A stretch of DNA of 64,000 nucleotides from Pseudomonas lurida (lineage in GTDB: Bacteria > Pseudomonadota > Gammaproteobacteria > Pseudomonadales > Pseudomonadaceae), in assembly GCF_002563895.1 (NCBI RefSeq), contig NZ_PDJB01000001.1, positions 5,749,501 to 5,813,500 on the forward strand. The letters run 5' to 3'. Shown here in pieces: positions 1,400 to 30,070 of this stretch. The first letter of the stretch is position 1. Every line of letters begins with the position of its first letter. Both the position numbers and the translations under genes were made by a program. The notes under the pieces were generated by a model. That model saw nothing but the letters and a program-made list of their open reading frames with translations, did no database searches and had not been told where the DNA came from.

Positions 1400-1418
1400 G
1401 TGTCTGAAGGTTGAGAAA

Positions 1419-2522: not shown

Positions 2523-2695
2523 AGCCAAGGCAATCGAATTTCTGGAAGGTGTTTGGCATTCCGCTGGGGATTGGCCTGCTCAGTGCCGCCGGGTTGTTTG
2601 CAGCCTTGCTCGGCGATGGGCTGTGGGATTCACTCAGTTGGGTCGGGTTAGGCATTCCCGCTGCAATTGGCACTTGGGCCTTGCTCAAACGGTGA
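2519..2695 (+). CDS. small hydrophobic membrane protein
   Basis: A 58-residue protein whose ATG overlaps the stop of the PepSY gene (ATGA), so the two are translationally coupled. It has two hydrophobic stretches (VFGIPLGIGLLSAAGLFAALL and LGIPAAIGTWALL), which suggests two membrane spans. In P. aeruginosa a small hypothetical gene occupies the same position after foxB. A partner role in siderophore iron uptake is inferred from position; no function is known to me. Confidence 0.7.
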   Translation: MKPRQSNFWKVFGIPLGIGLLSAAGLFAALLGDGLWDSLSWVGLGIPAAIGTWALLKR

Positions 2696-2730
2696 GATAG
2701 ATTAGCGCAGCCCTTTCTTGAGGAATGCCC

Positions 2731-3360
2731 ATGTCCGCTCCCAGCATGACCTTGTTCCACAACCCCGCTTCACCGTTCGTTCGCAAGGTGCGCGTGTTGC
2801 TGGCTGAAACCGGCCAGCAGGACCGCGTCGCCCTGCACGGCTGCATGCCGACCCCGGTCAATCCGGATGCACACGTGGTGCAAGGCAACCCCGTGGGCAA
2901 GATCCCGGCCTTGCGCCTGGCCGACGGCAGCGTGCTGCACGACAGCCGGGTGATCCTCGATTACTTCGACCACCAGCACGTCGGTAACCCGCTGATCCCT
3001 CGCGACGGCTCGGCCCGCTGGCGCCGCCTGACCCTGGCCTCGATGGCCGACGGCATCATGGACGCCGCCGTACTGGTGCGTTACGAGACAGCCCTGCGCC
3101 CAGCGCAAAAGCACTGGGACCAATGGCTGGACGAGCAGCGCAACAAGATCCGTCGAAGCCTCGCTGAATTGGAAGCCGACGCCATTGCCGAACTGGCCAG
3201 CCACTTCGACATCGCCGCCATCAGCGTGGCCTGCGCCCTGGGCTACCTCGACTTCCGCCATCCGGATATGCAATGGCGCTCGGATAACCCGCAGCTTGCC
3301 GCCTGGTACGCCGAGGTCAGCCAGCGACCTTCGATGCTGGAAACCCAGCCGCCCGTGTGA
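2731..3360 (+). CDS. glutathione S-transferase family protein
   Basis: About 209 residues. The N-terminal thioredoxin-like half begins MTLFHNPASPFVRKVRVLL, where SPFVRKV holds the usual Ser position of bacterial GSTs. It continues with a cis-Pro motif (VGKIPALRL) and the glutathione-gripping DSRVILDY segment. The C-terminal half is all-helical. This is the normal length for the family. The start at 2731 is preferred over the ATG at 2725 because GAGG lies seven bases upstream of 2731. The substrate cannot be read from the sequence. It stands alone after the fox genes and is followed by a REP pair. Confidence 0.85.
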   Translation: MSAPSMTLFHNPASPFVRKVRVLLAETGQQDRVALHGCMPTPVNPDAHVVQGNPVGKIPALRLADGSVLHDSRVILDYFDHQHVGNPLIPRDGSARWRRLTLASMADGIMDAAVLVRYETALRPAQKHWDQWLDEQRNKIRRSLAELEADAIAELASHFDIAAISVACALGYLDFRHPDMQWRSDNPQLAAWYAEVSQRPSMLETQPPV

Positions 3361-3377
3361 CGCTCACACCGACCCAA

Positions 3378-3469
3378 TGTGGGAGCGGGCTTGCCCGCGA
3401 TCGCGGTATGTCATTCAGCACATCTGTTTCTGAACCACCGCTATCGCGGGCAAGCCCACTCCCACATTG
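3378..3469. repeat. REP doublet (REPIN)
   Basis: Two inverted copies of the Pseudomonas REP core (GGGAGCGGGCTTGCCCGCGA) about 35 bp apart between the convergent GST and creD genes. Confidence 0.85.
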
Positions 3470-3546
3470 GTCGGTGGTGGTATTGAGGAACGTAACGATC
3501 CTTGAGGCTAAATGCGCCCCCACTTGCTGATCCTCACGCAACCCGA

Positions 3547-4920
3547 TCATTGCACCGCCTCCAGGTCAAACACCAACGGTTCGGTGGCCTTGCGCTTGCC
3601 CACGCCATACCAGTCCAGTTTGCGCGTCAGCACCATCACCGTGCCCAGCAGGCCGAACAACAGCAGCGAGCCCATCAACAACGCGTAATCCTCGGCACTC
3701 AGCAGCCCGTACAACAAGCCATACAACGCCGCCAACCCCGCCGAGAAACCCAGGCCGTGGGCCACACTGCGCAGCACGTGACACACATAGAAGCCAATCA
3801 ACGACACGCAGGCACTGGCAGAGAGGAGATAGGCCATGGCGAAGCCGATGTGCTCGGACAACGACAACAACAGCAGGTAGAAAAACGCCAGCGCAAAGCC
3901 CACCAAGGCGTACTGGACCGGGTGCACCGCCAGGCTCTTGAGCACTTCGAACAGAAAGAAGCCGGCAAAGGTCAGGGCGATGAACAGCAGCGCATATTTG
4001 ATCGCGCGGTCGCTCTTGAGGTACTGGTCCACCGGGTCGATGAAGTTCACGCCAAAGCTGCGGTTGTTGAAGTCGTCACAGCCCTGCTTGTCCAGGCAGG
4101 TTTGCAGGGCCTGCTCAAGGTTGGTGGAAAAGAAGGAGGTCTGCCAGCGGGCGGTAAAGCCCTTGTCGGTCACCTCCCGTTGGGCCGGCAGGTAGTTGCC
4201 GACAAAGCTTGGGTGCGGCCAGTTGGAGGCCAGTGACACCTGGCTGGTCTTGCCCACCGGCACCACCTGCAGTTGCTCGGTGCCTTGCAGGCGCAGGTCA
4301 AAGGCAAAGTCCACGACGTAGGGCTTTTTGCTGTCCTGTTCCGGCAGCGCCACATGCACGCCCTCCCCCAACCAGTCCACCTGGGAGCCCGGTTCGAACT
4401 CCAGGCGCTGGCTGCCAAGCTCCAGCGTCAACGCGTTTTCGATGCCGCGAATATCGCTGATACCCACCGCCAGAAACGCCGGCTCAAAGCGGTAGTCGGA
4501 AAAGTCTTCGGTGATGCCCAACTGCGCCGGCAATTCGAAACGCCCGCTGATGCGGTTGTCGGCATGGAACAGCCGCGCCTGGTAGATGCCCCGCGCGCGC
4601 AGTTCGGTCTGTACCTGGCCGTCGAGCTCAAATCGGTCCGGCAGGAAATACAGGCGACCGCGCTCTTCACGGGTGACTTCGTAGCGCTTGTTGAGCTTTT
4701 CATTGAGCTTCCACTCGCGGACGGTCTTGCGATACGGCACCACCATCACCGGGCCGGTGAGGCGCTGGCTATAACTGGAACTGCGGGCAATGTCTTCCAA
4801 TACAGTGTCGCGAGTGAGCTGGCGGTCGGCGATGATGCCGTTGATCATCAGCAACGGAATCAGCAACAGCAGGATCAGCAGCGCAATGGCGCCAAGTTTG
4901 AAAAGCAGGCTGCGGTTCAT
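3547..4920 (-). CDS. creD: cell envelope integrity protein CreD
   Basis: An inner-membrane protein of 457 residues, the usual CreD length. It has an N-terminal anchor (KLGAIALLILLLLIPLLMI), a large periplasmic domain with the family pattern SSYSQRLTGPVMVVPY, and a bundle of membrane spans in the last third starting after KSDRAIKYALLFIALTFAGFFLFE. CreD is the main CreBC-controlled effector in enterics and pseudomonads and affects envelope integrity and beta-lactam response. It is last in the creB-creC-creD order, 51 bp after creC. I did not find a convincing TTCAC-type cre-tag in that short gap. Confidence 0.93.
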   Translation of the reverse strand: MNRSLLFKLGAIALLILLLLIPLLMINGIIADRQLTRDTVLEDIARSSSYSQRLTGPVMVVPYRKTVREWKLNEKLNKRYEVTREERGRLYFLPDRFELDGQVQTELRARGIYQARLFHADNRISGRFELPAQLGITEDFSDYRFEPAFLAVGISDIRGIENALTLELGSQRLEFEPGSQVDWLGEGVHVALPEQDSKKPYVVDFAFDLRLQGTEQLQVVPVGKTSQVSLASNWPHPSFVGNYLPAQREVTDKGFTARWQTSFFSTNLEQALQTCLDKQGCDDFNNRSFGVNFIDPVDQYLKSDRAIKYALLFIALTFAGFFLFEVLKSLAVHPVQYALVGFALAFFYLLLLSLSEHIGFAMAYLLSASACVSLIGFYVCHVLRSVAHGLGFSAGLAALYGLLYGLLSAEDYALLMGSLLLFGLLGTVMVLTRKLDWYGVGKRKATEPLVFDLEAVQ

Positions 4921-4971
4921 GGGGCTCTCCCTGTTTTGATGGGAAGAGTCTGGGCAGCCCGTGTGGGGGAT

Positions 4972-6411
4972 TTATGTGGGTAATGTGGAGACTGTGTGGA
5001 GATGCAGCACCACTTGCACGCCGCCTTCGACATTGCCGATCTGCAACGCGCCGCCATGCAGCTTCATCACTTCCTCGACAAAATTGAGGCCCAGGCCAGT
5101 ACTTTTGCGCCCACTGGCCGGGCGTGGCAGCGAATAGAAACGCTCGCTCAGGCGTGGCAGGGCGTAGTCGGGGATCGGCGCGGCCTGGTTGAACAGGCTC
5201 ACCTGCACGTCGTTGTGCCGTGTCTGTGCGCTGAACCTCAGCAGGCCACCGGGCGCCGTGAAGTCCAACGCATTGTCCAGCAGGTTGCCCAGTGCCTGGC
5301 GTAGCAGGAAGGGTTCGCCATACACCTTCACCCCCGGCGCAATCGTCTGTTCGACGTGCAACCCGGCGCCTTCGATGCGCGCACATTGGGCCTTGAGCAC
5401 GTCATCGACCATGGCTGCCAAGCCAATACTGGCCTGCTCTTCAAGGCCCTGGCGTTGCTCGACTTGTGCCAGGTTCAGCAGGCGCTCGATCAACTGTTGC
5501 AAGCGCGCGCTTTCGCTGTCGATATTACCGACGAAGCGCTGCTGCTGTTCGCGGGTCATATCGCCCTGCAACAGTTCTGCCGCGCCGCGGATCGCGGCCA
5601 GCGGGCTCTTCAATTCGTGGGTCAGGGTGTGCACGTAGTGTTCGACGTAGGCCTTGCCTTCCAGCTGCGTGCGCATGTGCTCCACGGCGGTGGAGAGCTG
5701 CTTGAGTTCACCGCCGCGGTAATGGGGCAACTCGGCGCGCCGGCCCTCGCTGACCGCTTCGGCATAGGCCGTCAGCCGTCTCAAGGCAACACTCAACCAC
5801 CACGACAGCAGCGCGCCCAGCAGCAAGCCCAGAATCACCAGCCCGGCGCCGTACCAGAGCAGGCGGCGCTCCGTGCGGTCGACGTAGGGCTGCAACGAGC
5901 TGTTCGGCTTGGCCACGGTGACCACGCCGATGATCTGGCCGTTGTCACGGATCGGCGCACCGACGTGCATCACCGACGAAGTGGGGTCATCCAGCTCGCT
6001 GCGGGTGGAGCGCGCGCCGTACTCTCCGCGCAGGGTCAGGTACACATCGTTCCACTGGGAGTAATCCTGCCCCACCGCTTCGCCCATGGAGTCGAGCAGC
6101 ACCGTGCCCTTGGCGTCGGTCACGTAGATACGGTGGTTGACCTGGTTCTTCGGCAGCCCCCAGATGGTCGCACCCGGCTGGCGATTGCCGTAGGCCTTGA
6201 GCAGTTCCGGCCAGTGGCTTTGGCCGAGGGTGCCGTTCTTCACGTCATCGCGCAGGATCTCGGCCAGCAGGTTCGCCGTGTCCACCAGGGTTTCTTCGGT
6301 GGACTGGCGCACTCCGGGACGGATTTCCTTCATCACGGTGCTGAGCACAAAGTAGCCAGTCAGGCCGATAAACAGCGCATACACCAGGAAAATCCGCAGC
6401 CCGAGGCGCAT
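4972..6411 (-). CDS. creC: two-component sensor histidine kinase CreC
   Basis: 479 residues. A first membrane span (residues about 5-25), a periplasmic PAS/cache-like sensor, a second span near 186-208 (LLWYGAGLVILGLLLGALLSWW), a HAMP linker, the phospho-acceptor His at about 265 in THELKSPLAAIRG, and a C-terminal ATPase with N and G boxes (LGNLLDNALDFT, KSTGLGLNFVEEV). It phosphorylates CreB. The start codon overlaps the stop of creB, so the pair is coupled. In other bacteria the system responds to fermentation products or to inhibition of penicillin-binding protein 4; nothing here narrows the signal. Confidence 0.95.
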   Translation of the reverse strand: MRLGLRIFLVYALFIGLTGYFVLSTVMKEIRPGVRQSTEETLVDTANLLAEILRDDVKNGTLGQSHWPELLKAYGNRQPGATIWGLPKNQVNHRIYVTDAKGTVLLDSMGEAVGQDYSQWNDVYLTLRGEYGARSTRSELDDPTSSVMHVGAPIRDNGQIIGVVTVAKPNSSLQPYVDRTERRLLWYGAGLVILGLLLGALLSWWLSVALRRLTAYAEAVSEGRRAELPHYRGGELKQLSTAVEHMRTQLEGKAYVEHYVHTLTHELKSPLAAIRGAAELLQGDMTREQQQRFVGNIDSESARLQQLIERLLNLAQVEQRQGLEEQASIGLAAMVDDVLKAQCARIEGAGLHVEQTIAPGVKVYGEPFLLRQALGNLLDNALDFTAPGGLLRFSAQTRHNDVQVSLFNQAAPIPDYALPRLSERFYSLPRPASGRKSTGLGLNFVEEVMKLHGGALQIGNVEGGVQVVLHLHTVSTLPT

Positions 6412-7079
6412 CAGCTGTTGCTCGGGCTGTAGCTGTAGCCGAGGCCACGATGAGTCTGGATCGGCTCGGCATCAGCGGCCACGCTGCGCAATTTGCTGCG
6501 CAGGCTTTTGATATGGCTGTCGATATTGCGCTCGTAGCCGGCATCCGCCGCCACGCCTACCGCGTCCAGGAGTTGCTCGCGGCTGAACACGCGCTCGGGT
6601 TGTTCCAGCAGGCTTTGCAGCAAACGGAACTCATGGCGCGTGAGGCTCAAAGGCTGGCCGCGATACGTAATCTGCATGCGCTCCAGATCAACCTGGAACA
6701 CCGCGGGCGCAGCACCGGGGCCAATCCGCTTGAGGATCGCCCGGACCCGCGCCGTCACTTCCCGTGGGCTGAAGGGCTTGACCACATAATCGTCGGCGCC
6801 GATCTCCAGCCCCACCACGCGGTCGATCTCGCCATCCCGGGCACTGAGGAACATCACGGGCACTTCGCTGAACCGGCGCAGTTGCTTGCAGGTTTCAAAG
6901 CCTGTGATGTCCGGCAGGCCGATGTCGAGGATGATCAGGTCGGCCGGGGTTTGGCGCTGATGGGCCAGCGCCTCCTGGCCGAGGCTCAGCCAGGTGGTGG
7001 TAAAGCCCTCGCCTTGCAGGGCGAATATCAGCGTGTCGGCTATCGCCGCTTCATCTTCGACAATCAGGATATGCGGCAT
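6411..7079 (-). CDS. creB: two-component response regulator CreB
   Basis: 222 residues of the OmpR/PhoB class. The receiver domain has acidic residues E8 and D9, the phospho-acceptor Asp at about 52 (LIILDIGLPD), a Ser in FLSARD and the conserved Lys in DDYVVKPF. A winged-helix DNA-binding domain follows (LSLTRHEFRLLQSLLEQPERVFSREQLL is its core region). Partner of CreC and activator of creD. First gene of the creBCD operon on the minus strand, nine bases after the zinc-protease gene ends. Confidence 0.95.
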   Translation of the reverse strand: MPHILIVEDEAAIADTLIFALQGEGFTTTWLSLGQEALAHQRQTPADLIILDIGLPDITGFETCKQLRRFSEVPVMFLSARDGEIDRVVGLEIGADDYVVKPFSPREVTARVRAILKRIGPGAAPAVFQVDLERMQITYRGQPLSLTRHEFRLLQSLLEQPERVFSREQLLDAVGVAADAGYERNIDSHIKSLRSKLRSVAADAEPIQTHRGLGYSYSPSNS

Positions 7080-7088
7080 GAGGGTCCG

Positions 7089-7589
7089 TCAGCAGTCCGG
7101 TTTGTCAGCAGTGTAGCGACGGGCCGGGTTTACCGCAGCGCCGAATTCACGCAGGGCCTTGGCGCCAATCAGCAAGGGGTAGTTGAAGCTGCTGCGGTCG
7201 GTCAGGTTGACCTCGACGGTGCGCTTGACGTTGCCCAGACACATTTCCAGGTCGACTACCGGACGCTTGGCCACGGAAGGTTCGTCCTTGTCGTCGTCTT
7301 CGTCGGCGCGGCTTTTGATTTTGCTGATGCGCGACACTTTGTGCTCATAGACTTTGTTGGACGCCTCCTTGCCGCCTAGGCGAAAACGCACCCAATCGTC
7401 GCCGTCACGGGTGAAGGTCTCGATGTCACGGGCCGACAGCGAGGCGGTCAGCGCGCCAGTGTCCATCTTGGCCTTGAAGGTTTCGCCGATCTCCGGCAAC
7501 TGGATGTATTCGTAGCGACCGTAGAGGGTCGGTTCGGCGGCCATGACAGGCAGGGCGGCCAGGGCGAGCGAGGCAAATAGCAGTTTCAC
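7089..7589 (-). CDS. retropepsin-like 'ATP-dependent zinc protease' family protein
   Basis: 166 residues with a cleavable signal peptide (MKLLFASLALAALPVMAAEP), so periplasmic. The family signature is KMDTGALTASLSA at residues 41-53: a DTG aspartic-protease triad within a single retropepsin fold. The family is listed in Pfam as Zn_protease (PF05618), but its members look like dimer-forming aspartic proteases rather than zinc enzymes. It also has SSFNYPLLIGAKALREFG, the second half of the retropepsin core. It sits just upstream of creB on the same strand with only nine bases between them, so it may be transcribed with creBCD. That co-transcription is an inference. Confidence 0.8.
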   Translation of the reverse strand: MKLLFASLALAALPVMAAEPTLYGRYEYIQLPEIGETFKAKMDTGALTASLSARDIETFTRDGDDWVRFRLGGKEASNKVYEHKVSRISKIKSRADEDDDKDEPSVAKRPVVDLEMCLGNVKRTVEVNLTDRSSFNYPLLIGAKALREFGAAVNPARRYTADKPDC

Positions 7590-7762
7590 GAAGTGATGTC
7601 CTCGGAAAGAAGTAGGCGGATTCTAGACCGCAAAAGCGGTGGTTAGTTAGCTCACTCAACCATACCCGGCACATTGTGAAACATTCGTACCGTGATTTGC
7701 GATTTGGCCTCTGGACTCGCCTTGCTTATCATGACCCGCCCACACGATTCCAAGAGTTACTT

Positions 7763-8650
7763 ATGCGCCGACTGCTCACCGGCTGTTTTGTCACCCTGCT
7801 GCTATTGCTCAACACCTTGGTGCTGTTCGGCCCATTGATGGTGTTTGCCCTGCTCAAGCTGGTGGCCCCCGGTCGCTTGCGTGACTACATGTCATGGGCG
7901 GTGATGTGGATCGCCGAAACCTGGGCCGAGATCGACAAGCTGATTTTCTCGCTGTGCATCCCCACCCAATGGGATATTCGCGGCGGCGCCGATTTGCGCA
8001 GTGACACGTCTTACCTCGTCATCAGCAACCACCAATCCTGGGTAGACATCCCGGCGCTGATCCAGGCCCTCAACCGGCGCACGCCGTTCTTCAAGTTCTT
8101 CCTGAAGAAAGAGCTGATCTGGGTGCCCTTCCTGGGCCTTGCCTGGTGGGCGCTGGATTACCCGTTCATGAAGCGCTACACCAAGGCTTTCCTGGCCAAG
8201 CACCCGGAACTCGCGGGGCAGGACTTGAAGATCACCAAAGAGGCCTGCGAGCTGTTCAAGCGCCAGCCGGTGACGGTGGTCAACTACCTGGAAGGTACGC
8301 GCTTCAGCGAGGCCAAGCGGGCGCAGCAGGGTTCACCGTTCAGCCGCTTGCTCAAGCCCAAGGCGGGCGGCGTGGCGTTTGTGCTGGCGGCGCTGGGTGA
8401 ACAACTGGACGCCGTGCTCGACGTGACCGTGGTCTATCCACAGCAGAAAATACCGGGGTTCTGGGATTTGATCAGCGGCGCGGTGCCAGAGGTGATCATT
8501 GATATCCGTACCCGCGAGCTGGATCCGGCGTTGTGGCAAGGGGATTACGAGAATGACCCGGTGTTTCGCCAAACCGTCCAGAACTGGGTCAACCAGCTCT
8601 GGACGGAGAAGGACGCGCGCATCGAGCAACTGCGCGCGGAGCGTCTTTAA
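7763..8650 (+). CDS. 1-acyl-sn-glycerol-3-phosphate acyltransferase family protein (PlsC/YihG-like)
   Basis: 295 residues. One or two N-terminal membrane spans (residues about 5-33), then the acyltransferase block with motif NHQSWVD (H90-x4-D95) and the phosphate-binding EGTR motif (NYLEGTRFSEAKR). This is the architecture of YihG-type acyltransferases that acylate lysophosphatidate at the inner membrane. I use the ATG at 7763, seven bases after AAGAG, because the upstream in-frame ATG at 7676 falls in the divergent promoter region. Its TAA overlaps, on the other strand, the TAA of the convergent DUF2780 gene. Confidence 0.83.
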   Translation: MRRLLTGCFVTLLLLLNTLVLFGPLMVFALLKLVAPGRLRDYMSWAVMWIAETWAEIDKLIFSLCIPTQWDIRGGADLRSDTSYLVISNHQSWVDIPALIQALNRRTPFFKFFLKKELIWVPFLGLAWWALDYPFMKRYTKAFLAKHPELAGQDLKITKEACELFKRQPVTVVNYLEGTRFSEAKRAQQGSPFSRLLKPKAGGVAFVLAALGEQLDAVLDVTVVYPQQKIPGFWDLISGAVPEVIIDIRTRELDPALWQGDYENDPVFRQTVQNWVNQLWTEKDARIEQLRAERL

Positions 8651-9219
8651 CTGCCGGTGCCCCATGCCTGGGCCAGCTTGCCCAGCACCGAGCTGCTGGC
8701 ACCCTGGCCACCCAGGTATTGCAGGATCACCGGGGCAAACTGGCCGACCATGCCACTGTCCATGCCCAAGGCACTGAACGCGGTGTTCAGGTCGTTGGTG
8801 TTCTTCACGTTACCCAACAGGCCGTCGAGGCCGCTGGTCTTGCTGCCGCCGGCCTGGCCGAGCATCCCGCTCAAGGCCCCGAGGCTACCCAACGCATTGT
8901 TGCCCGACAGTTGGTCAAGGCCCGGCACGCTATTACCCAGCTGCGAATAGTCGTTGCCGCTCAGTTTGTTCTTGGCCAGGCCCAGCATGGCGCCCGTACC
9001 GCCCACCGCTTGTTCGGGGGTGATGTTCAGTTGCGAGGTCAGGGCGCTCAGCAACCCGGCCGTCTCGGACGACGGTGCGGCAGCCGCGGCCTTGTTGTTA
9101 CCACCCTGCATGCCGGCAATCGCATTGGCCGCGTCCCCAAGGCTGAACCCTGCGGCGAACACCGGGCCGGCTGCCAGGGTCATCAGGCAGGAAAGGGCGA
9201 AACCGCGTGAAATCTTCAT
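8647..9219 (-). CDS. DUF2780 domain-containing exported protein
   Basis: 190 residues beginning with a signal peptide (MKISRGFALSCLMTLAAGPVFAA). The mature part is rich in Gly, Ala, Leu, Ser and Asn with repeated helices such as ALTSQLNITPEQAVGGTG and FAPVILQYLGGQG, typical of the DUF2780/VcgC family. No catalytic motif is evident. An ORF start at 9366 is rejected because the signal peptide fixes the start at 9219. It is divergent from the sigma-factor operon, so the 222 bp between them may hold promoters for both. Function unknown. Confidence 0.8.
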   Translation of the reverse strand: MKISRGFALSCLMTLAAGPVFAAGFSLGDAANAIAGMQGGNNKAAAAAPSSETAGLLSALTSQLNITPEQAVGGTGAMLGLAKNKLSGNDYSQLGNSVPGLDQLSGNNALGSLGALSGMLGQAGGSKTSGLDGLLGNVKNTNDLNTAFSALGMDSGMVGQFAPVILQYLGGQGASSSVLGKLAQAWGTGS

Positions 9220-9441
9220 CAAAACAACCTCTGGGCGTAGGGGTGAAAGCAGGCGTTTGACTGGGCAGCCCGGGGGATTGTTCCCAGTGCATCCAAACCC
9301 GTCGCTGCTGCGTATATGCACCACAACCCCTCGAGGAAGACGGCCGTGAATGGAACGCGCGCGCAACCTGAACTAACCTCTGCCTGCCACCGCTTGCGCG
9401 CGCAGTCCCATCGCCCTGTATCCAGAGCCTGGAGAAGCCCT
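9220..9441. promoter_or_regulatory. divergent promoter region of DUF2780 gene and sigma-factor operon
   Basis: Non-coding if the sigma factor starts at 9442. It contains CTGAACTAACC at 9368-9378, whose GAACT at 9370-9374 resembles an ECF-type -35 element, and an inverted GGGAACAATCCC-like segment near 9271-9283 on the minus strand. Autoregulation by the sigma factor would fit but is not shown. Confidence 0.35.
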
Positions 9442-9990
9442 ATTTCCACGTCCGACGCTGATCCGCTGCAGCCCTTGCTGGCCCAATGTGCGCTGGGCAA
9501 TCGCCAGGCGTTCGAAACCCTCTACCGCAGCGTCTCACCGCGCTTGCACGGTGTAGCGCTGCGTTTCATGGGCCGCCAGGACCTGGCCGAAGAGGTCTTG
9601 CAGGAAGCCTTCGTGCGCATCTGGTACAACGCTTCGCGCTACCAGGCGCACCTGTCTGCGCCGATGACCTGGATGGTCAACATCACCCGCAACCTGGCCA
9701 TCGACCAACTGCGCAAGCACCGTGAACAGCCGCTGGCGGACGGTCAGCAGGACACGCTGGTCGATGACACACCCAGCGCCCACGACCAACTCGACAACGA
9801 ACGCGAGGCCCGCGCCTTGAACCGCTGCCTGGACACCCTGGAGGGCATGCAGCGCCAATCGATTACCGTGGCTTACTTCCAGGGCCTGTCGTGCGCGGAG
9901 TTGGCCCAACAGCTGGCAGCCCCCCTGGGCTCGGTCAAATCCTGGATTCGTCGCGGCATGGAACGCCTGCGCAGGTGCCTTGAATCATGA
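9442..9990 (+). CDS. ECF RNA polymerase sigma factor (SigK-like)
   Basis: About 182 residues. Region 2 contains DLAEEVLQEAFVRIW and the -10-binding segment APMTWMVNITRNLAIDQLR. Region 4 has SITVAYFQGLSCAELAQQL and SVKSWIRRGMERLR. The start is uncertain. The first in-frame ATG, at 9316, has no ribosome-binding site and adds a Pro/Arg-rich stretch unlike sigma factors. A GGAGAAG at 9431-9437 lies at ideal distance from an ATT at 9442 that would open the protein as (M)STSDADPLQ. Its stop overlaps the start of the RskA-type anti-sigma factor, its presumed partner. Confidence 0.75.
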   Translation: MSTSDADPLQPLLAQCALGNRQAFETLYRSVSPRLHGVALRFMGRQDLAEEVLQEAFVRIWYNASRYQAHLSAPMTWMVNITRNLAIDQLRKHREQPLADGQQDTLVDDTPSAHDQLDNEREARALNRCLDTLEGMQRQSITVAYFQGLSCAELAQQLAAPLGSVKSWIRRGMERLRRCLES

Positions 9991-10664
9991 ACTACCAGAC
10001 CACCGCCCTGCGCCGTGCCCTCGCCGCCGACTACGCCATCGGACTGATGCCTGCCACTGCGCGTCGGCGTTTCGAGGCCTTGTTGCTGGAGGATGCGGCG
10101 CTGCGCGTGGAACTCGGCCATTGGCAGGACGCCCTGGCCAGCCTGACCGGCGCCTTGCCCGAACGACCGGTGCCCGAGCATGTATGGGACAGCATCAAGG
10201 CGCGGATCGAGCCGCAGGTGCTGCATTTGCCGGCAAAAAAACCCTTGTGGATGAACCTGCGCTTGCTGGCAGCGGCGTGCGTGGTAGTCGTGGCCGTGCT
10301 GGCGGGCGTGCTGTATCAACGAGACATCGGTGCGCAGTACAACGCCACGCTCGTCGCGGCCAACCAGCAACCGGCGCTGCAGATCAAGGCGTATGGCGAC
10401 CACCTGCAAGTGGAACCCGTGGCACTGGCTGCGGTGGAACCGACGCACAGCCTCGAGTTGTGGGCGATTGCACCGGGCGGTAAACCAATCTCCCTGGGTC
10501 TGCTCCCCGCTGCGGGCAACGGCCGAATAACGCTGAGCAAGGCGCAACGAGCCTTGCTCTCCGCGCCGCTGACGTTGGCCGTGAGCCTGGAGCCACGCGG
10601 CGGTTCAGTGACCGGGCAACCCACCGGACCGGTGCTGTATCAGGGCCAATTGGCATCACTTTGA
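9987..10664 (+). CDS. anti-sigma factor, RskA type
   Basis: 225 residues, with its ATG inside the last codons of the sigma gene (ATGA overlap). An N-terminal cytoplasmic anti-sigma domain (RRALAADYAIGLMPATARRRFE) is followed by one membrane span (LRLLAAACVVVVAVLAGVLY, residues about 87-106) and a periplasmic RskA domain with the family motifs HSLELWAIAPGGKPISLGLL and PTGPVLYQGQL. It should hold the upstream sigma factor at the membrane until the periplasmic part is cleaved or rearranged. The signal is not evident. Confidence 0.87.
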   Translation: MNYQTTALRRALAADYAIGLMPATARRRFEALLLEDAALRVELGHWQDALASLTGALPERPVPEHVWDSIKARIEPQVLHLPAKKPLWMNLRLLAAACVVVVAVLAGVLYQRDIGAQYNATLVAANQQPALQIKAYGDHLQVEPVALAAVEPTHSLELWAIAPGGKPISLGLLPAAGNGRITLSKAQRALLSAPLTLAVSLEPRGGSVTGQPTGPVLYQGQLASL

Positions 10665-10740
10665 GCTGAACGGCAGTCAGGAACCCATCGCGCGAACCAG
10701 GGTCCATGACAGGACTTAAAGCCTTGCCAGGAAAAGCCCG

Positions 10741-11199
10741 ATGAGCGCGACCCGTCCCCAAGTGATTGAGCAAAAGCCGCCTTTCTGGAGCCGCCCGCGC
10801 GTGTTCATGGGCGTCTGCGTGGCCATTGTCGCCGGCCTCGGCAGCGCGCTCTACACCCAAGACAACGTCAAGTCTGCTGCCACACTGGTGACCACTGCCC
10901 AGCAACCCGCGGCGCAGATCATGGCGCACAAGGATTACCTCGAAGTCGAGCCGATCGCCACGACGGCACCCGAGCCGGATCGCAGCCTGGAACTGTGGGC
11001 GTTGCCCGAAGGCGGCGCACCGGTGTCGCTTGGACTGTTGCCGGAAGATGGCAAAGGCATTATCGGACTCAACCCACGCCAACAGAAAAGCATCCGCAAG
11101 CCGGTGGAGTTGATGGTGAGTTCGGAAACCAAAGGTGGGTCGTTGAGCAAGCAGCCCACGGGGCCGACCGTCTACCAAGGCGCCCTCGCCAACCGCTGA
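10741..11199 (+). CDS. truncated RskA-like membrane protein (no anti-sigma domain)
   Basis: 152 residues that repeat the second half of the preceding anti-sigma factor: a membrane span (VFMGVCVAIVAGLGSALY) and a periplasmic RskA domain with RSLELWALPEGGAPVSLGLL and PTGPTVYQGALANR. The N-terminal sigma-binding domain is missing. AGGA lies upstream of the ATG at 10741, so it looks like a real gene rather than debris. It most likely arose by partial tandem duplication. It could compete with the full anti-sigma factor for the periplasmic protease or signal, which is inference. Confidence 0.8.
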   Translation: MSATRPQVIEQKPPFWSRPRVFMGVCVAIVAGLGSALYTQDNVKSAATLVTTAQQPAAQIMAHKDYLEVEPIATTAPEPDRSLELWALPEGGAPVSLGLLPEDGKGIIGLNPRQQKSIRKPVELMVSSETKGGSLSKQPTGPTVYQGALANR

Positions 11200-23909: not shown

Positions 23910-24040
23910 CCCATGGATAAGGTTCGCCGCATCGGCGGCCCCACACTCGCTCCCAACACAGACGCTTTCTTTACGCCTTGCTGCAAACCTGATCAGCCAC
24001 TATTCGCCGGCCACACCGAATGGCCCTGAGGACACACACG

Positions 24041-25336
24041 ATGGACGTCACCGCAACCTTAAGCTTGGGCGATCCGCTGGAACCCGCACGCAAGGCCACC
24101 GCGCAAATGCTGCAAGAGCGCGAGCGTACTTTCTCGCTGCCACAGCCGTTTTACTCTGATGAGCGGCTGTTCGATATCGACATGCAGGAGATCTTCCAAA
24201 AAGAGTGGCTGATCGCCGGCATGACCTGCGAGATCCCCACCAAGGGCAACTACCTGACCCTGCAAGTGGGCAAGAACCCCATCATCGTGATCCGTGGCGC
24301 CGAAGGCGTGGTACATGCCTTCCATAACGTGTGCCGTCACCGTGGCTCGCGCTTGTGCACCAGTGACAAGGGCAAGGTCGCCAAACTCGTTTGCCACTAC
24401 CACCAGTGGACTTACGAACTGGACGGCCGACTGCTGTTCGCCGGCACCGAGATGGGCGCCGACTTCGACATGAAGCAGTACGGTCTCAAGCCAGTGAACG
24501 TGAAGACTGCCGGCGGCTACATTTTCATCAGCCTGTCGGAGAACCCACCGGCCATCGATGACTTCCTGTCGACGCTTAACCACTACATGGAACCCTACGA
24601 CATGGAAAACACCAAGGTGGCGGTGCAAACCACCTTGATGGAAAAGGCCAACTGGAAGCTGGTGCTGGAAAACAACCGCGAGTGCTACCACTGCAACGCG
24701 TCACACCCGGAGCTGTTGAAAACCCTGCTGGAATGGGATGACGTCACCGACCCGCGCGCCGACCAGGCGTTCAAGGACCACGTTGCCGCCTCGGCCGCCG
24801 CCTGGGATGCCGAGAAAATCCCTTACGCCCATGCCAGCTTTGGCCTGCGTAATCGCATCGTGCGCATGCCGCTGCTCAAGGGCACCGTGTCGATGACCCT
24901 GGACGGCAAGCAGGGCTGCGCCAAGCTCATGGGCCGCATCAAGAACCCGGACCTGGGCTCGATGCGCATCCTGCACCTGCCTCACTCCTGGAACCACTGC
25001 ATGGGCGACCACATCATCGTGTTCACCGTATGGCCGATCAGCGCCCAGGAGACCATGGTCACCACCAAGTGGTTGGTGCACAAGGACGCCGTGGAAGGTG
25101 TGGACTACGACCCGGCGCGCATGCGCGAGGTGTGGGACGCCACCAACGACCAGGACCGTCGCCTGGCCGAAGAAAACCAGCGCGGCATCAACTCCACCGC
25201 CTACCAGCCCGGCCCGTACTCCAAGACCTATGAGTTTGGCGTGGTGAACTTCGTCGACTGGTACAGCGAGCGCATGTTGAGCAACCTGGGGGCCGCACCG
25301 GCGCCTTACCTCAAGGGCGTTGCGGTTCACGAGTAA
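24041..25336 (+). CDS. gbcA: glycine betaine monooxygenase oxygenase subunit GbcA
   Basis: 431 residues, Rieske non-haem iron oxygenase. Rieske cluster ligands C98-x-H100 (NVCRHRGS) and C118-x2-H121 (CHYHQWTY). The mononuclear iron site lies in ENNRECYHCNASHPE with H217 and H222. It oxidatively demethylates glycine betaine to dimethylglycine and formaldehyde with electrons from GbcB. The ATG at 24041 matches the family N-terminus (MDVTATLSLGDPLEPARKAT). A REP-like hairpin ends the transcription unit. Confidence 0.96.
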   Translation: MDVTATLSLGDPLEPARKATAQMLQERERTFSLPQPFYSDERLFDIDMQEIFQKEWLIAGMTCEIPTKGNYLTLQVGKNPIIVIRGAEGVVHAFHNVCRHRGSRLCTSDKGKVAKLVCHYHQWTYELDGRLLFAGTEMGADFDMKQYGLKPVNVKTAGGYIFISLSENPPAIDDFLSTLNHYMEPYDMENTKVAVQTTLMEKANWKLVLENNRECYHCNASHPELLKTLLEWDDVTDPRADQAFKDHVAASAAAWDAEKIPYAHASFGLRNRIVRMPLLKGTVSMTLDGKQGCAKLMGRIKNPDLGSMRILHLPHSWNHCMGDHIIVFTVWPISAQETMVTTKWLVHKDAVEGVDYDPARMREVWDATNDQDRRLAEENQRGINSTAYQPGPYSKTYEFGVVNFVDWYSERMLSNLGAAPAPYLKGVAVHE

Positions 25337-25348
25337 CCCTCCCCTCCA

Positions 25349-25374
25349 TGGGAGCCGGCAAGCCGGCTCCCACG
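25349..25374. repeat. single REP hairpin after gbcA
   Basis: Perfect GGAGCCGGC/GCCGGCTCC stem with a two-base loop, 15 bp after the gbcA stop. A lone REP arm that could act as a 3' stabiliser or terminator. Confidence 0.6.
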
Positions 25375-25378
25375 CACT

Positions 25379-25985
25379 GTTCAAATTTTAATCAAAACCG
25401 TTGAACCCCTCTCCTGTCGTGCCCTCCAGCCTTTACCCAACAACTTATCCACAAAGCCACCCACAGCAATTGTGGGCAAGTGCGCCTTACGCCCTAAATT
25501 AAATCAAGAAAATCCGTGACTTATTTGCGTACCGGGTTTTTAGCCATGGTTGATCACTTATTGATCAAACCATTGGAAGCCTTGTATTACGTGACGTGCA
25601 GAGGTACGCAAACACCTTATCCACAGAAGCACCAACAGACTTTGGGGGCAACTTGAACGACGCTGTGGAAAACCCCTTCAAAGCTTCATAAATCGCGGTT
25701 CCCAGAGATCCAGGTGAATAAATCACCCAAATTGATCATATTTTGATCAGCCAACTGAAAGCCTTGATTTATATGGGCTGCAGCCGATAGCGAACACCTT
25801 ATCCACAGAAGCGCCAACAGAGTATGGGGGCAACTCTGTGCGTAAAAATGCTCGGACAGCGCGAAAAAACCGAGTAAAAACCGTCAGTTACCCTGGTTGT
25901 TTTTCGTACAGAGGGCTGGAGGGCTTGATTCTAAGGGGCTGTGGACAGCCGCGAACAGGTTATCCACAGACGGGTCAACAGGGAT
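25379..25985. repeat. four-unit imperfect repeat array carrying DnaA boxes (datA-like candidate)
   Basis: No gene is seen in the 777 bases between gbcA and etfB. Four related units lie in one direction. Each contains a perfect DnaA box TTATCCACA, at 25445, 25617, 25799 and 25960, that is 172, 182 and 161 bp apart. Around the box, units 2 and 3 share (CG)AACACCTTATCCACAGAAGC, then CCAACAGA and TGGGGGCAACT. In both, a pair of TGATCA palindromes 11 bp apart (25551/25562 and 25733/25744) begins exactly 66 bp before the box. Units 1 and 4 are degenerate copies. A near-box in reverse (TGTGGAAAA) is at 25664. The stretch is AT-richer than its surroundings. Best reading: a DnaA-binding or titration locus. 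An extra origin or a decayed replicon is possible but less likely. Confidence 0.75.
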
Positions 25986-26017
25986 TGTGGGTAATCTTAC
26001 GGACAGTGCCAAAACCA

Positions 26018-26110
26018 ATGTGGGAGCGGGCTTGCTCGCGAAGGCGCAGAGTCAGCCAACATAGGCACTGACGGGTCCACTGCATTCGCGAGCAAGCCCG
26101 CTGTCACATT
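26018..26110. repeat. REP doublet after the DnaA-box array
   Basis: Inverted TGTGGGAGCGGGCTTGCTCG and CGAGCAAGCCCGCTGTCACA cores immediately before the etfB stop. Confidence 0.8.
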
Positions 26111-26113
26111 CGA

Positions 26114-26884
26114 TCAGCGTACGACGCCTTCCTCAACCAACAGTTTGAGAATGGCCTCGGCGCCCGCTTCCGGGCTGAGCCCCTTGAGCACCTGCCCGCC
26201 GCCGCCACTGGCCTTGGCCGTGGCGGCTTTCATGCGGTCAGCACCGCTCTTGGCCTTGATCACCTTGAGGCGCTTGGGGCGGGGCTTGGCCGGTTGCAGC
26301 ACGGCGCCTGTGAATAACGCGTCCTGCTCGACCTCGACGTCATGGGCGGCCAGCTCACCGCGCTGCGCCGGGCCATAGGCGCTCTGCCGGGGCTTGGGCG
26401 CCGCGTTATCCACCGTCGCCAGGAACGGCAGGCGCACCTTCAAGCGCCGCCGCTGGCCACGTGGCAAGGCTTGCAGCACATGGGCCACGCCGCCATCGAT
26501 GGACTCCACCTGCGCCAGCCCGACAATCAACGGCCAGCCCAATTGCTCGGCGAGCAAAAACGGCAACATGCCCGAGCCTTCACCGGTTTCGGCCTGGCTG
26601 CCAGCAAGCACCACCTGGGCACCGGCATCGCGCAGATACTCACTGAGGACCGGCAAGGCGTCGCTGCCGGCCGGTTGTTCCAGCACGTGCAACTGCGGCA
26701 AGCCCATGCCCAGGTAGCTGCGCAGCGTCGGTTCGGCGATGTCGCCGGCATGCAGCACCTGCAACTTATCCCCAGCCATTTGCAGGCCCAGTTCAACCGC
26801 TCGCGCGTCCTGCTCTGCACGGCGCGGGCGCCCGGAGGTCGGGTGGGCACCGATGGAAACCAGGCTGATTACATTCGTCGTCAT
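26114..26884 (-). CDS. etfB: electron transfer flavoprotein beta subunit (betaine-catabolism type)
   Basis: 256 residues with the ETF-beta adenine-nucleotide fold: SLVSIGAHPTSGRPRR at the N-terminus, VVLAGSQAETGEGSGMLPFLLAEQLGWP as the conserved core, and a basic Ala/Lys-rich C-terminal tail. It differs from the housekeeping EtfB and belongs to the copy next to dgcAB. It accepts electrons from dimethylglycine demethylase with EtfA. I prefer the ATG at 26884, eight bases after AGGA, over those at 26890 and 26905; it follows the etfA stop by ten bases. Confidence 0.88.
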   Translation of the reverse strand: MTTNVISLVSIGAHPTSGRPRRAEQDARAVELGLQMAGDKLQVLHAGDIAEPTLRSYLGMGLPQLHVLEQPAGSDALPVLSEYLRDAGAQVVLAGSQAETGEGSGMLPFLLAEQLGWPLIVGLAQVESIDGGVAHVLQALPRGQRRRLKVRLPFLATVDNAAPKPRQSAYGPAQRGELAAHDVEVEQDALFTGAVLQPAKPRPKRLKVIKAKSGADRMKAATAKASGGGGQVLKGLSPEAGAEAILKLLVEEGVVR

Positions 26885-26894
26885 GGCCATATCC

Positions 26895-28115
26895 TTAAGC
26901 TGCATCGCGCTTGGCGCCGTTGCGGTAGGCCTCGACCGCAGCGATCAAGGCTTGCAGTATTGCGGCGCTCTCGCCGATGACCGAGAGGTCGGCACGCTTG
27001 ATCATGTCGCAACCGGGGTCGAGGTTGATCGCCACCACCTTGTCACAGGCACCGATGCCCTGCAGGTGCTGGATCGCCCCGGAAATGCCCACGGCCACAT
27101 ACACCCGCGCCGTGACCCAGGTGCCGCTGGCGCCGACCTGACGATCACGCGCCATGAAGCCATCGTCCACCGCTACCCGCGAAGCGCCCTCGGTGGCGCC
27201 CAACGCAGCGGCGGCCTGGTGGAACAGCGCCCAGTCCTTCACGCCATTGCCACCGGAGAAAATAAACTCCGCCTCGGCCATGGGAATCGCACCCGGGTCC
27301 ACCGCTACCGCACCCAGGTCCTCGATGCGCGGCAGGCTGCGCGCCAGGGCTGTGGATAACTCCACCGGCAATACTTCGTGCCGGGTCTCGCTGACCGGTT
27401 CGGCGCATTCCGCGGCAGCCAGGATCAGGCGCGGCAGGGGCCGGGCCAAGTCTTCCTGGCCTGCGCCGGCGCGGCCGATGCATTCGTCGCCCTTGATCTG
27501 CCAGACCCGTGTGGCCGGGCGCTCCTTGAGGCTGGCGGCAAAGCGCCGCCCCAGTTCGCCGCCACCGCTGCGGCTGTCCGGCAGCAACCAGTGACGCGGG
27601 TTGAACTGGTTATCCACAGCACGCAAACCTTGCACGCGCTGCTCCGGTGAATAACCGTCGAATTCGTGGCCTTCCAGCACCAGCAGGCGGTCGACGCCAG
27701 CAGTAGCAAATGCGTTCTCCTTGTGTTCGCCAAACACCACCGCCAACACCGCACCGTCGCTGCCCGCGAGCTGCCGCGCCAGGCCCAGCACATCGCGGTC
27801 ATGGCTGCTCAGGCGGCCACCGACCATGTCCGGCACCACGTTGATGTAGAACGCAGGCGCAGGCACCTGATGCAGCGGCAACTGCACGTCCACCGCCGCC
27901 GTGCGCTTGGCCGCACCGCCCTGCTGGGCGCCACTGCGGTCGATGCGCTTGATGCCATTGGGGCCGATAAAACCGACGCCGTGCACGTTCTTGCGGATGA
28001 CGCCATTAGGCCCCATCCAACTGTGTTGGACCGGCTGCATCGCCGCGTGCAGCGGGTGCAGGCGGTTGCGGGCGATCCATTCGGCCCGTGGGTCGCGGCG
28101 GATAATGTCGCTCAT
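26895..28115 (-). CDS. etfA: electron transfer flavoprotein alpha subunit (betaine-catabolism type)
   Basis: 406 residues, longer than the ~310 of housekeeping EtfA because of an N-terminal extension of about 85 residues (GPNGVIRKNVHGVGFIGPNG). The C-terminal FAD domain is typical: DRQVGASGTWVTARVYVAVGISGAIQHLQG and VAINLDPGCDMIKRADLSVIG. It works with EtfB as electron acceptor in DMG demethylation. The start overlaps the dgcB stop by one base. Two perfect DnaA-box 9-mers, at 27351 (reverse) and 27610, lie within this coding region. Confidence 0.92.
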   Translation of the reverse strand: MSDIIRRDPRAEWIARNRLHPLHAAMQPVQHSWMGPNGVIRKNVHGVGFIGPNGIKRIDRSGAQQGGAAKRTAAVDVQLPLHQVPAPAFYINVVPDMVGGRLSSHDRDVLGLARQLAGSDGAVLAVVFGEHKENAFATAGVDRLLVLEGHEFDGYSPEQRVQGLRAVDNQFNPRHWLLPDSRSGGGELGRRFAASLKERPATRVWQIKGDECIGRAGAGQEDLARPLPRLILAAAECAEPVSETRHEVLPVELSTALARSLPRIEDLGAVAVDPGAIPMAEAEFIFSGGNGVKDWALFHQAAAALGATEGASRVAVDDGFMARDRQVGASGTWVTARVYVAVGISGAIQHLQGIGACDKVVAINLDPGCDMIKRADLSVIGESAAILQALIAAVEAYRNGAKRDAA

Positions 28116-30070
28116 CAGTGCACCTGCGCAGACGTTTGTTGGATAGGACGCTTGATAGGGGCTTTGGCCGGTGCAGCGTCTTCAAGCAACGCGTCGGCCA
28201 CCAATTCGGCAATGTCCTTGATCAGCGGGCGCGGCTCGACCACACCTTCCAGCATCGCGGTGCATTGCGGGCAACCCACGGCCACCAGCTCGGCGCCGGT
28301 TTCGCGGATGTCGTCCATGCGCATGTCCGGGATCCGTTGCTTGCCGGGAATGTCGGTAATCGGCGCCCCGCCACCACCGCCGCAGCAGCGTGAACGGAAG
28401 CCTGAGCGTTGCATTTCCCTGACCTCGATGCCCAGCGCCCGCAGCACTTGGCGCGGCGCCTCGTATTCACCGTTGTAGCGACCCAGGTAGCACGGGTCGT
28501 GATAGGTCACGCTATTACCCTTGTGCTGGCCCAGGTTCAGCGCGCCCTCGCCGATCAGCTCGGCCATGAACGTACTGTGGTGCTGCACGAGGTAATTTCC
28601 GTTGAAGGCACCGTACTCATTCTTGAGCACATGGAAACTGTGCGGATCGCAGGTCACGATGCGCTTGAAGCTGTATCTGGCCAGGGTCTGGATATTGCGC
28701 GAAGCCAATAACTGGAAGGTCGCTTCATCGCCCAGACGACGGGCGACGTCGCCGCTGTCGCGTTCCTCCAGGCCGAGCACGGCGAAGTCGACCTTGGCCG
28801 CCTTGAGTACTTTGACGAACGCACGCAAGGTACGTTGGTTGCGCATGTCGAAGGCGCCGTCGCCGACCCAGAACAGCACCTCGCAGCTGCCCTTGTCGCT
28901 GAGCAGCGGCAGGTTCAGATCCGCAGCCCAGTTAAGGCGACCGCCGGGTGCGAAACCACCGGGGTTGTCAGTGGCGATCAGGTTCTCGAGGACTTCGGCG
29001 CCCTTGTTCGGGGTGGCACCTTTTTCCAGGGTGAGGTGGCGGCGCATGTCGACGATGGCGTCCACGTGCTCGATCATCATCGGGCACTCTTCCACGCAGG
29101 CACGGCAGGTGGTGCACGACCACAGGGTCTCGGCGTCCACCAGGCCATTGACGATCGGTTGGTGCGGGTTGCCACCGTGTTCGCCCACCGGTTTGCCCGG
29201 GTACGGGCTGCCGGCGAATTTCGCATCGGTGCCGCCGGCGAGGCCGACGACCATGTCCTGGATCAGCTTTTTCGGGTTCAGCGGCTGGCCAGCGGCGAAC
29301 GCCGGGCACGCGGCTTCGCACTTGCCGCACTGCACGCAGGCGTCGAAGCCGAGCAGTTGGTTCCAGGTGAAATCCTTGGGCTTTTCCACGCCCAGTGGTG
29401 CGCTTTTATCGCTGAGGTCCAAGGGCTTCAAACCGGTGGAACGGCCACCGCCAAAGCGTTCGGCGCGGCGGTGCCAGGCCAGGTGCAGGGCACCGGCGAA
29501 GGCGTGCTTCATGGGGCCGCCCCAGGTCATGCCGAAGAACATCTCGGACACGCCCCACAGCACACCGACACCCAGCAACGCGGCCAGCAGCCAGCCGCCA
29601 AAATCAGCCGGCAGGATGCCCGCCACCGGCAGCGTCACCAGGAAGAAACTCACCGAGAATGCCATCAGGCTTTTCGGCAGGCGCATCCACGGGCCTTTGG
29701 ACAAGCGCGACGGCGGGTTGCGCCGACGCAGGTAGACGAAAGTGGCGCCGACAAACATCAGCACCGACGCCAGCAGCAAGGCGTAGCCGAGGATGCGGTT
29801 CTGCAGGCCGAAGCCGTGCACGAGGATCGCCAGCAGTGCCGACAATACAAAGCCGAGCGCCGTGGCGACGTGGGTGTTGGCGATGTATTTGTCGCGGGCA
29901 ACCACGTGGTGCAGGTCAACCATGTAGCGCTTGGGCATGGCCAGCAGGCCGCCCAGCAGATCGACCTTGGAAGCACGGCCACGGCGCCACATGTTCACCC
30001 GGCGCAAGGCGCCGAGGACGGCAAGGCCCAGGGCCGCGAACAAGAGGATAGGAAGCAAGGTGTTCAACAT
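28115..30070 (-). CDS. dgcB: dimethylglycine demethylation protein DgcB, membrane Fe-S protein
   Basis: 651 residues. The N-terminal third has about five membrane spans. Two 4Fe-4S ferredoxin motifs follow (ACVQCGKCEAACPAF and CTTCRACVEECPMM), then a glycolate-oxidase-like cysteine-rich domain (CGGGGGAPITD, preceded by CC; HDPCYLGRYNGEY). It resembles a quinone-linked oxidoreductase, so it probably delivers electrons from DgcA/ETF to the membrane quinone pool. PA5399 in P. aeruginosa is required for DMG use. The start MLNTLLPILL at 30070 is chosen over an ORF to 30118 that runs into REP sequence. Confidence 0.93.
   Translation of the reverse strand: MLNTLLPILLFAALGLAVLGALRRVNMWRRGRASKVDLLGGLLAMPKRYMVDLHHVVARDKYIANTHVATALGFVLSALLAILVHGFGLQNRILGYALLLASVLMFVGATFVYLRRRNPPSRLSKGPWMRLPKSLMAFSVSFFLVTLPVAGILPADFGGWLLAALLGVGVLWGVSEMFFGMTWGGPMKHAFAGALHLAWHRRAERFGGGRSTGLKPLDLSDKSAPLGVEKPKDFTWNQLLGFDACVQCGKCEAACPAFAAGQPLNPKKLIQDMVVGLAGGTDAKFAGSPYPGKPVGEHGGNPHQPIVNGLVDAETLWSCTTCRACVEECPMMIEHVDAIVDMRRHLTLEKGATPNKGAEVLENLIATDNPGGFAPGGRLNWAADLNLPLLSDKGSCEVLFWVGDGAFDMRNQRTLRAFVKVLKAAKVDFAVLGLEERDSGDVARRLGDEATFQLLASRNIQTLARYSFKRIVTCDPHSFHVLKNEYGAFNGNYLVQHHSTFMAELIGEGALNLGQHKGNSVTYHDPCYLGRYNGEYEAPRQVLRALGIEVREMQRSGFRSRCCGGGGGAPITDIPGKQRIPDMRMDDIRETGAELVAVGCPQCTAMLEGVVEPRPLIKDIAELVADALLEDAAPAKAPIKRPIQQTSAQVH

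Follow-up and report, generated by a model that had tools for sequence, protein, structure and literature searches.

A tandem array of four putative DARS1-type elements between gbcA and etfB of Pseudomonas lurida

The intergenic region between gbcA and etfB of Pseudomonas lurida contains four tandem units built around DnaA boxes, which are probably elements of the DARS1 type (DnaA-reactivating sequences), their ability to recharge DnaA being extrapolated from Escherichia coli. The anatomy of the units, their conservation, their spacing in helical-turn steps, and the similarity of a unit profile (R2) to DARS1 are direct results; by analogy, Fis-gated recharging of ADP-DnaA to ATP-DnaA appears to be the most likely function of the array. 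The initial annotation of this DNA had described a conserved non-coding DnaA-box array that probably regulates DnaA, which our results bear out, and had called it datA-like, which they do not: by profile the units resemble DARS1 and not datA, and conservation is lacking at the proposed IHF site. Reactivation was nevertheless among the roles then offered (DnaA titration, hydrolysis, or reactivation); it is the datA label that finds no support.

Results

Four perfect DnaA boxes in a non-coding gap

The genome (G000) is one contig of 6,311,648 bp, and the window, i.e., the whole 64-kb stretch analyzed here, corresponds to positions 5749501-5813500. The ends of the contig, 1-10837 and 6300802-6311648, repeat each other over 10.87 kb at 99.5% identity, as if the chromosome had been left untrimmed at circularisation. 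The whole array is non-coding and occupies part of a 777-bp gap bordered by two convergent genes (Table 1). Scanning the window confirmed the four perfect DnaA boxes (TTATCCACA) first reported there, all on the + strand, with start-to-start spacings of 172, 182, and 161 bp. The window holds eight copies of TTATCCACA in total, against a mean of 0.12 and a maximum of 1 in 100 dinucleotide-preserving shuffles, so that the earlier estimate of about 0.5 copies by chance in 64 kb was too high. The four other perfect boxes are located at 1450, 23285, 27351, and 27610, the last three within the gbcB and etfA reading frames.

The gap also contains a REP-like inverted repeat (window 26017-26110, 29-bp arms) with matches at many places in the genus genomes. 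We rejected a REP-like element as the nature of the array, this repeat (26010-26113) being separate from it; a plasmid search likewise matched only the 26010-26113 repeat and nothing in the array.

The genome-wide count and ranking of clusters proposed with the initial annotation gave 140 copies of TTATCCACA (three of them counted twice at the overlapping contig ends) vs. 17 for the reversed control. With its four boxes, the array tied for the richest 600-bp window with a cluster at 6284851-6285123, just upstream of a dnaA-like ORF that was located by a motif; in 300-bp windows, only this dnaA-upstream cluster reached four boxes. We took this cluster as oriC, which places the array about 510 kb away, not far from the origin, as had been supposed. 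The array is not itself a dnaA-linked cluster, since the one with four boxes just ahead of the dnaA-like ORF is that far off, and we rejected the idea of an oriC copy, the profiles giving just partial matches of 8-9 bits there. Perfect boxes are concentrated near oriC: successive 0.5-Mb distance bins hold 61, 49, and 23 of them, and the rest of the genome 7. This concentration agrees with the trend published for E. coli and Salmonella (PMC12371093); it forms the background of the array and not part of the finding.

Some other concentrations of boxes were observed. Perfect boxes were 6.8 to 10.2 times as numerous as the reversed control in genomes G099, G113, G126, and G145. At 6200522-6200624 of G000, three perfect boxes within about 100 bp, accompanied by near-boxes, gave a partial profile match only. 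Contig 1 of the relative G099 carries fifteen perfect boxes on one strand at 166718-177069, most of them at 630-bp intervals, as would be expected within a long coding repeat.

Table 1. Features of the array and its flanking genes (positions in the window; identities are means over columns of the 66 genus loci unless stated otherwise; relaxed, GNNYRNNWNNYRNNC; strict, GNNYANNNNNTRNNC).
Feature	Position	Strand	Remarks
gbcA, glycine betaine monooxygenase oxygenase subunit	24020..25336	+	left neighbor, convergent; NF058607, 808 bits, above cut-off
DARS-type unit 1 (putative)	25377..25479	+	R2 profile 63.8 bits, E 5.3e-19
Fis-consensus 15-mer, unit 1	25379..25393		66 bp before box; relaxed 62/66 loci, strict 18/66
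Palindrome region, unit 1	25401..25429		weak, near spacer-level conservation; identity 0.50
Perfect DnaA box, unit 1 (DARS1 box III position)	25445..25453	+	9/9
Weak second box, unit 1 (box II position)	25457..25465	+	6/9 bases
Inverted box, unit 1 (box I position)	25471..25479	-	7/9
DARS-type unit 2 (putative)	25550..25651	+	R2 profile 64.3 bits, E 3.7e-19
Fis-consensus 15-mer, unit 2 (TGATCA pair)	25552..25566		65 bp before box; relaxed 66/66, strict 37
Palindrome, unit 2	25573..25601		approximate genus consensus CTGnAGGCCAYG-N5-CATGGCCTnCAG; identity 0.60
Perfect DnaA box, unit 2 (DARS1 box III position)	25617..25625	+	9/9
Weak second box, unit 2 (box II position)	25629..25637	+	5/9; CAACAG nearly invariant in genus
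Inverted box, unit 2 (box I position)	25643..25651	-	6/9
TTTTCCACA between units 2 and 3	25664..25672	-	fits TTWTNCACA; column identity 0.98-1.0
DARS-type unit 3 (putative)	25732..25833	+	R2 profile 67.7 bits, E 3.2e-20
Fis-consensus 15-mer, unit 3 (TGATCA pair)	25734..25748		65 bp before box; relaxed 65/66, strict 33
Palindrome, unit 3	25755..25783		identity 0.69
Perfect DnaA box, unit 3 (DARS1 box III position)	25799..25807	+	9/9
Weak second box, unit 3 (box II position)	25811..25819	+	4/9
Inverted box, unit 3 (box I position)	25825..25833	-	6/9
DARS-type unit 4 (putative)	25893..25994	+	R2 profile 53.7 bits, E 7.3e-16
Fis-consensus 15-mer, unit 4	25895..25909		65 bp before box; relaxed 62/66, strict 11
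Palindrome, unit 4 (imperfect)	25916..25944		identity 0.64
Perfect DnaA box, unit 4 (DARS1 box III position)	25960..25968	+	9/9
Weak second box, unit 4 (box II position)	25972..25980	+	5/9
Inverted box, unit 4 (box I position)	25986..25994	-	8/9
Electron transfer flavoprotein beta subunit (etfB)	26114..26905	-	right neighbor, convergent; NF051844, 409 bits, above cut-off

Anatomy of the unit

Each unit spans about 102 bp and comprises a Fis-consensus dyad, a palindrome, the conserved motif GCGAACA, the perfect box, and two weak boxes. In all four units, the three boxes stand at 0, +12 (same direction), and +26 (inverted), which is the core layout of DARS1, and it is always the box in position III that is perfect, while those in positions II and I retain 4-6 and 6-8 of the nine bases, respectively. 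The palindrome columns are modestly conserved among the genus loci (0.50-0.69 vs. 0.47-0.56 in the spacers). The two halves of the palindrome do not covary (pairing 0.467 observed vs. 0.488 expected), which makes a protein site on double-stranded DNA more likely than a hairpin. Conservation as high as that of the perfect boxes is also seen for TTTTCCACA, which lies on the reverse strand between units 2 and 3.

Conservation and helical spacing in the genus

A blastn search with the gap sequence gave some match in 102 of 119 genus genomes and none in 17. Many of these matches corresponded to the REP-like repeat (query 674-777) and were excluded from the array counts; we kept 66 loci, including that of G000, whose match fell within the array part. 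At least 66 of the 119 sampled genomes therefore carry the array with three to five perfect boxes (four in 49 loci, five in 14, three in 3). The initial annotation had named unconserved boxes amid conserved surroundings as evidence against its proposal, and we observed the reverse: mean column identity was 0.955-1.0 in the perfect boxes and 0.72-0.89 over the 27 bp of the weak ones, compared to 0.47-0.56 in three spacer stretches. In 20 of the 66 loci (e.g., L032, L037, L045, and L071), the array is preceded by a further perfect box, which is carried by the other strand and lies 144-155 bp before box 1.

The same annotation had also named absence in close relatives as such evidence, and here the outcome mostly favors a function, since the array is present in at least 66 genomes, but 11 of the 17 genomes without a blastn match possess gbcA (at least 82% identity) with no unit beside it, in flanks of 1.5 kb a side in nine genomes and less in two. 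This counts against a strict conservation of place. In one of these 11 genomes (G113), four units are found about 3.2 kb from gbcA, next to a threonine-aldolase-like gene. Conversely, in the four loci read among those lacking gbcA in the sequence at hand, the array is intact and has a different gene on its left (in L037, the single case checked, a cholesterol-oxidase-like gene scoring below the family cut-off); the array thus does not depend on gbcA.

The box-to-box distances in 60 loci fall into six classes (139, 149-150, 159-162, 170-172, 181-183, and 192-193 bp) about 11 bp apart, i.e., one helical turn per step, as if all units had to face one side of the DNA. For the 22 distinct spacings, the mean resultant was 0.904 (period near 10.7-10.8 bp), a value reached by none of 20000 random sets, a figure that overstates the phasing because values one base apart are not independent. 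For this test, the spacings 55+106 and 66+106 of five-box loci were summed, and six of the 66 loci without a four-unit pattern were dropped (L089, L093, L094, L103, L105, and L106; their spacings include 129, 159, 249, or 259 bp, or a unit is missing).

A Fis-consensus dyad at a fixed distance

We confirmed the TGATCA pairs noticed earlier before boxes 2 and 3; the feature extends further than had been noticed, a 15-mer fitting the Fis consensus being present in all four units. An FNR/ANR box, as we take that motif to read, was rejected for these pairs, as the spacing does not fit. What we take to be the relaxed Fis consensus, GNNYRNNWNNYRNNC, is found exactly 65 bp, or for unit 1 mostly 66 bp, upstream of 250 of the 261 boxes in the 66 genus loci, against a mean of 0.27 boxes per offset elsewhere. 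The claim of a fixed distance relies on this relaxed form because the stricter GNNYANNNNNTRNNC, as given in PMC4585315, fits just 98 of the 261 boxes there. The count of 250/261 is the unbiased one; the 91 units of A1 were mostly picked for carrying the Fis consensus, and its invariant G and C in A1 are thus so by construction. Within the first 25 nt, the consensus was found in 96/113 rows of the outer groups (mainly other genera of the family), 15/18 at the level of the order, and 13/20 at that of the class, compared to 1.6% of shuffles, these rows having been found with models that include the Fis consensus. The genome encodes a Fis homologue (59% identity over 76 aa).

The IHF site proposed at 25563 (GATCAAACCATTG) exists and is indeed one base from the consensus, but it recurs there (at most one mismatch) in only 6 of the 66 loci, and we rejected it as not conserved. 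Nowhere in the array did the IHF consensus, with at most one mismatch, occur at any one place in more than 7 of the 66 genus loci. The array thus departs from the DARS2-type pair of Fis and IHF sites, the Fis consensus being conserved and the IHF consensus not.

Similar units in the genome and in other taxa

We used two profiles, R1, built on sequence only from 91 units of the genus alone, and R2, built from 150 same-order unit matches without any E. coli sequence (104 model positions). In G000, R1 found ten units at E < 1e-6 (the E-values of both profiles being rough by the tool's own account). Besides the four of the array, these are a pair flanked by rarD and a gcvR-like gene with an ACT domain, another pair near 663 kb, and single units near 5486 kb and at 3512 kb; R2 added two sites at 2145 kb and 4556 kb. 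For each of the twelve, the relative G099 has a site at a similar coordinate, with gene context compared at the rarD-gcvR gap only. The layout recurs at 2145339, where the II/I core is strong (6/9/9 matches, close to the 7/9/8 of E. coli DARS1), and in the unit at 5740119 an AAGC-N13-GCTT palindrome stands at the distance seen in DARS1.

At E <= 0.001 and with G000 included each time, R1 matched 75/79 genomes of the family (1 to 28 matches each) and 69/115 of the order, and R2 matched 111/143 genomes of the class. R2 also matched 57/100 genomes of the phylum, G000 included, but many matches outside the class span the box part only, so that our claim for the complete architecture is limited to the class. 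The consensus of 20 class-level matches at the core is TTATCCACAGAGTTATCCACAGnTTTTGTGGATAA, in which all boxes are strong. In the eight family genomes counted, R2 gave 8 to 29 matches per genome.

Units are often clustered in the family, by 2 to 8. The rarD-gcvR gap contains six units in G028, vs. two in G000; in two genomes of other genera (G126 and G145), a threonine-aldolase-like gene adjoins the clusters, and at other places in G145 and in G129 eight units are packed into about 1.3 kb. Among named species, P. nitroreducens, P. panipatensis, and P. resinovorans have two to four tandem units.

As a check of specificity, R2 was run on the 444-kb origin region, which contains 45 perfect boxes, and gave no full-length match and seven partial ones (best E 0.0015). 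None of 34 dnaA-region ORFs matched in 37 order- and class-level loci, so that these units do not seem to sit at oriC. Neighbor genes of E. coli DARS1, DARS2, and datA, sought in 89 loci, yielded one uvrB and one partial bioA-like match (45% over 91 aa, L186); these are too few, and we therefore claim no synteny. The uvrB case, a class-level unit (L218, 1501-1602) about 0.6 kb from this DARS1 neighbor, may be due to chance, being one among 89 loci.

Similarity to DARS1

We searched R2 against five 50-kb pieces of E. coli K-12 containing DARS1, DARS2, datA, oriC, and a control. The single match at E <= 10 in these 250 kb was DARS1, and it is for this reason, together with the layout of the boxes, that we regard the array as a tandem of the DARS1 type. 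This match (85 bp, 23.6 bits, E 7.2e-6) extends over positions 20-103 of the 104 of the model and covers the palindrome. With filters off, over 9.5 kb, R2 scored DARS1 at 23.5 bits, DARS2 at 12.0 and 8.3, and datA at 5.9; the 12.0 bits correspond to a second box set of DARS2 and the 8.3 bits to its core. R1 gave no E. coli match under default filters and found DARS1 at 12.5 bits (E 0.004) with filters off over 49.5 kb. As R1 misses DARS1 by default, the link to DARS1 relies on the broader profile.

Discussion

Alternative explanations

Our main doubt about the DARS1 reading comes from the strengths of the boxes. Judging from the sequence, box III is perfect whereas boxes II and I match the consensus poorly, the reverse of DARS1, which may indicate a changed role, such as a sink or inactivation. 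The array could accordingly be a DARS-derived sink that has lost catalysis and in which four strong boxes hold DnaA under the control of Fis, so that titration would double soon after initiation. The same inversion in all four units would fit this explanation, and so would the location of 133 of the 140 perfect boxes within 1.5 Mb of oriC, such a concentration being described as favorable to titration in E. coli and Salmonella (PMC12371093). Pure titration, though, does not need the weak boxes, which are well conserved, and four boxes are few among the 140 of the genome; we thus consider a sink rather unlikely. A datA-like site, hydrolyzing DnaA-bound ATP with the help of IHF, seems improbable. 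The distance of E. coli datA to oriC (about 470 kb) is close to that of the array, and its strong boxes in one direction are separated by a spacing within the range of the array, but the surroundings of datA gave no R2 match, the 5.9 bits obtained with filters off correspond to the 14-bp box itself only, and the low recurrence of the IHF consensus also speaks against it.

We give little credence to a transcriptional or RNA element acting on neighboring genes (tandem promoters, terminators, or small RNAs). The array is intergenic and repeated and includes a palindrome, as such an element might, but its flanking genes are convergent, it persists beside another gene in all four gbcA-less loci, no Rfam family reaches its gathering score in 24000-28200, and the palindrome lacks covariation. 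Repetitive or mobile DNA devoid of cellular role, which multi-copy tandem units differing in number between lineages could evoke, was already disfavored and is the least credible explanation: the 12 sites occupy similar coordinates in G000 and G099, the class-level matches that we read keep fixed internal distances, and the boxes are near-invariant.

Possible mechanism and significance

If the array acts as DARS1-type elements do, the strong box would be the first docking point of DnaA, and the two weaker boxes, one of them inverted, would then hold more DnaA, bringing two molecules head to head. This contact would loosen the bound ADP, as in E. coli, and the released DnaA would take up ATP, so that oriC could fire again. 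Fis, bound at its fixed distance upstream of each box, could couple this activity to rapid growth, and the four units, kept in a constant helical phase, could assemble into one stacked complex. Because of its distance from oriC, the array should be copied soon after initiation. More tentatively, we can imagine, without holding it to be probable, that Pseudomonas species use Fis-gated DARS units with inverted strengths, stacked in phase by 2 to 8, and that the number of units sets the recharging or the withdrawal of DnaA near the origin, i.e., an evolvable dial for the timing of initiation.

DARS sites and their wider occurrence are already known. To our knowledge, DnaA recharging has been little tested in bacteria other than E. 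coli, and the array offers a precise, deletable locus for studying it. The three-part description of the unit (Fis-like dyad, palindrome, and three boxes) may explain why the flank of DARS1 matters, and the natural series of unit numbers allows one to ask whether the dose of DARS sets initiation. In the accessible text of the open-licence literature, we found no DARS for Pseudomonas, papers naming both making no link between the two, and no phased tandem array, fixed Fis-consensus distance, or class-wide three-part layout.

Comparison with known systems

In Bacillus subtilis, as here, several DnaA-box clusters lie outside oriC, and removing them advances initiation; this bacterium has no DARS loci according to the available part of the same review (PMC13220808). 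The E. coli-type perfect box is reported to be the high-affinity box in Pseudomonas putida too (PMC4285127, review). The E. coli datA locus resembles the array in having TTATCCACA and TTATTCACA 162 bp apart in one direction and in lying near oriC (the distance being taken from positions in PMC5742627), but its 50 kb (L209) gave no R2 match, and the array has no conserved IHF consensus.

DARS-like sequences are described as conserved in many proteobacteria (PMC10380432), Vibrio cholerae among them (PMC6090056). Our three-box class consensus fits their layout, whereas the available parts of these papers mention no tandem array or fixed Fis distance. DARS2 (rppH-mutH gap) resembles the array in combining a DARS core with Fis sites, and its region (L139, 1636-1671) contains the second box set noted above in the same 0/+12/+26 layout (7, 8, and 7 of 9). 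It differs in being switched on by Fis and IHF and in requiring IHF (PMC4245941), as well as in the low score of its core.

DARS1 (bioD-uvrB gap) is a single element and not a tandem, combines strong boxes II and I with a weak box III, has no Fis consensus at the -65 offset of the array, and reportedly works without any protein factor (PMC4585315). It nevertheless shares with the units of this family the three boxes at the same positions and orientations and, with the unit at 5740119, the upstream distance of the AAGC-N13-GCTT palindrome. The DARS core consists of head-to-head boxes I and II and of a stimulating box III, all three being called essential (PMC10380432). Full ADP release in vitro requires a 42-bp flank past the last box of DARS1 (PMC4585315), and the shared palindrome, by our own approximate placing, appears to lie in this flank. 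Finally, in ChIP-seq of E. coli DnaA, 15 of the 16 bound regions, DARS1 among them, contained a pair of boxes separated by 2-3 bp (PMC11317965), and every unit of the array is, by position, such a pair.
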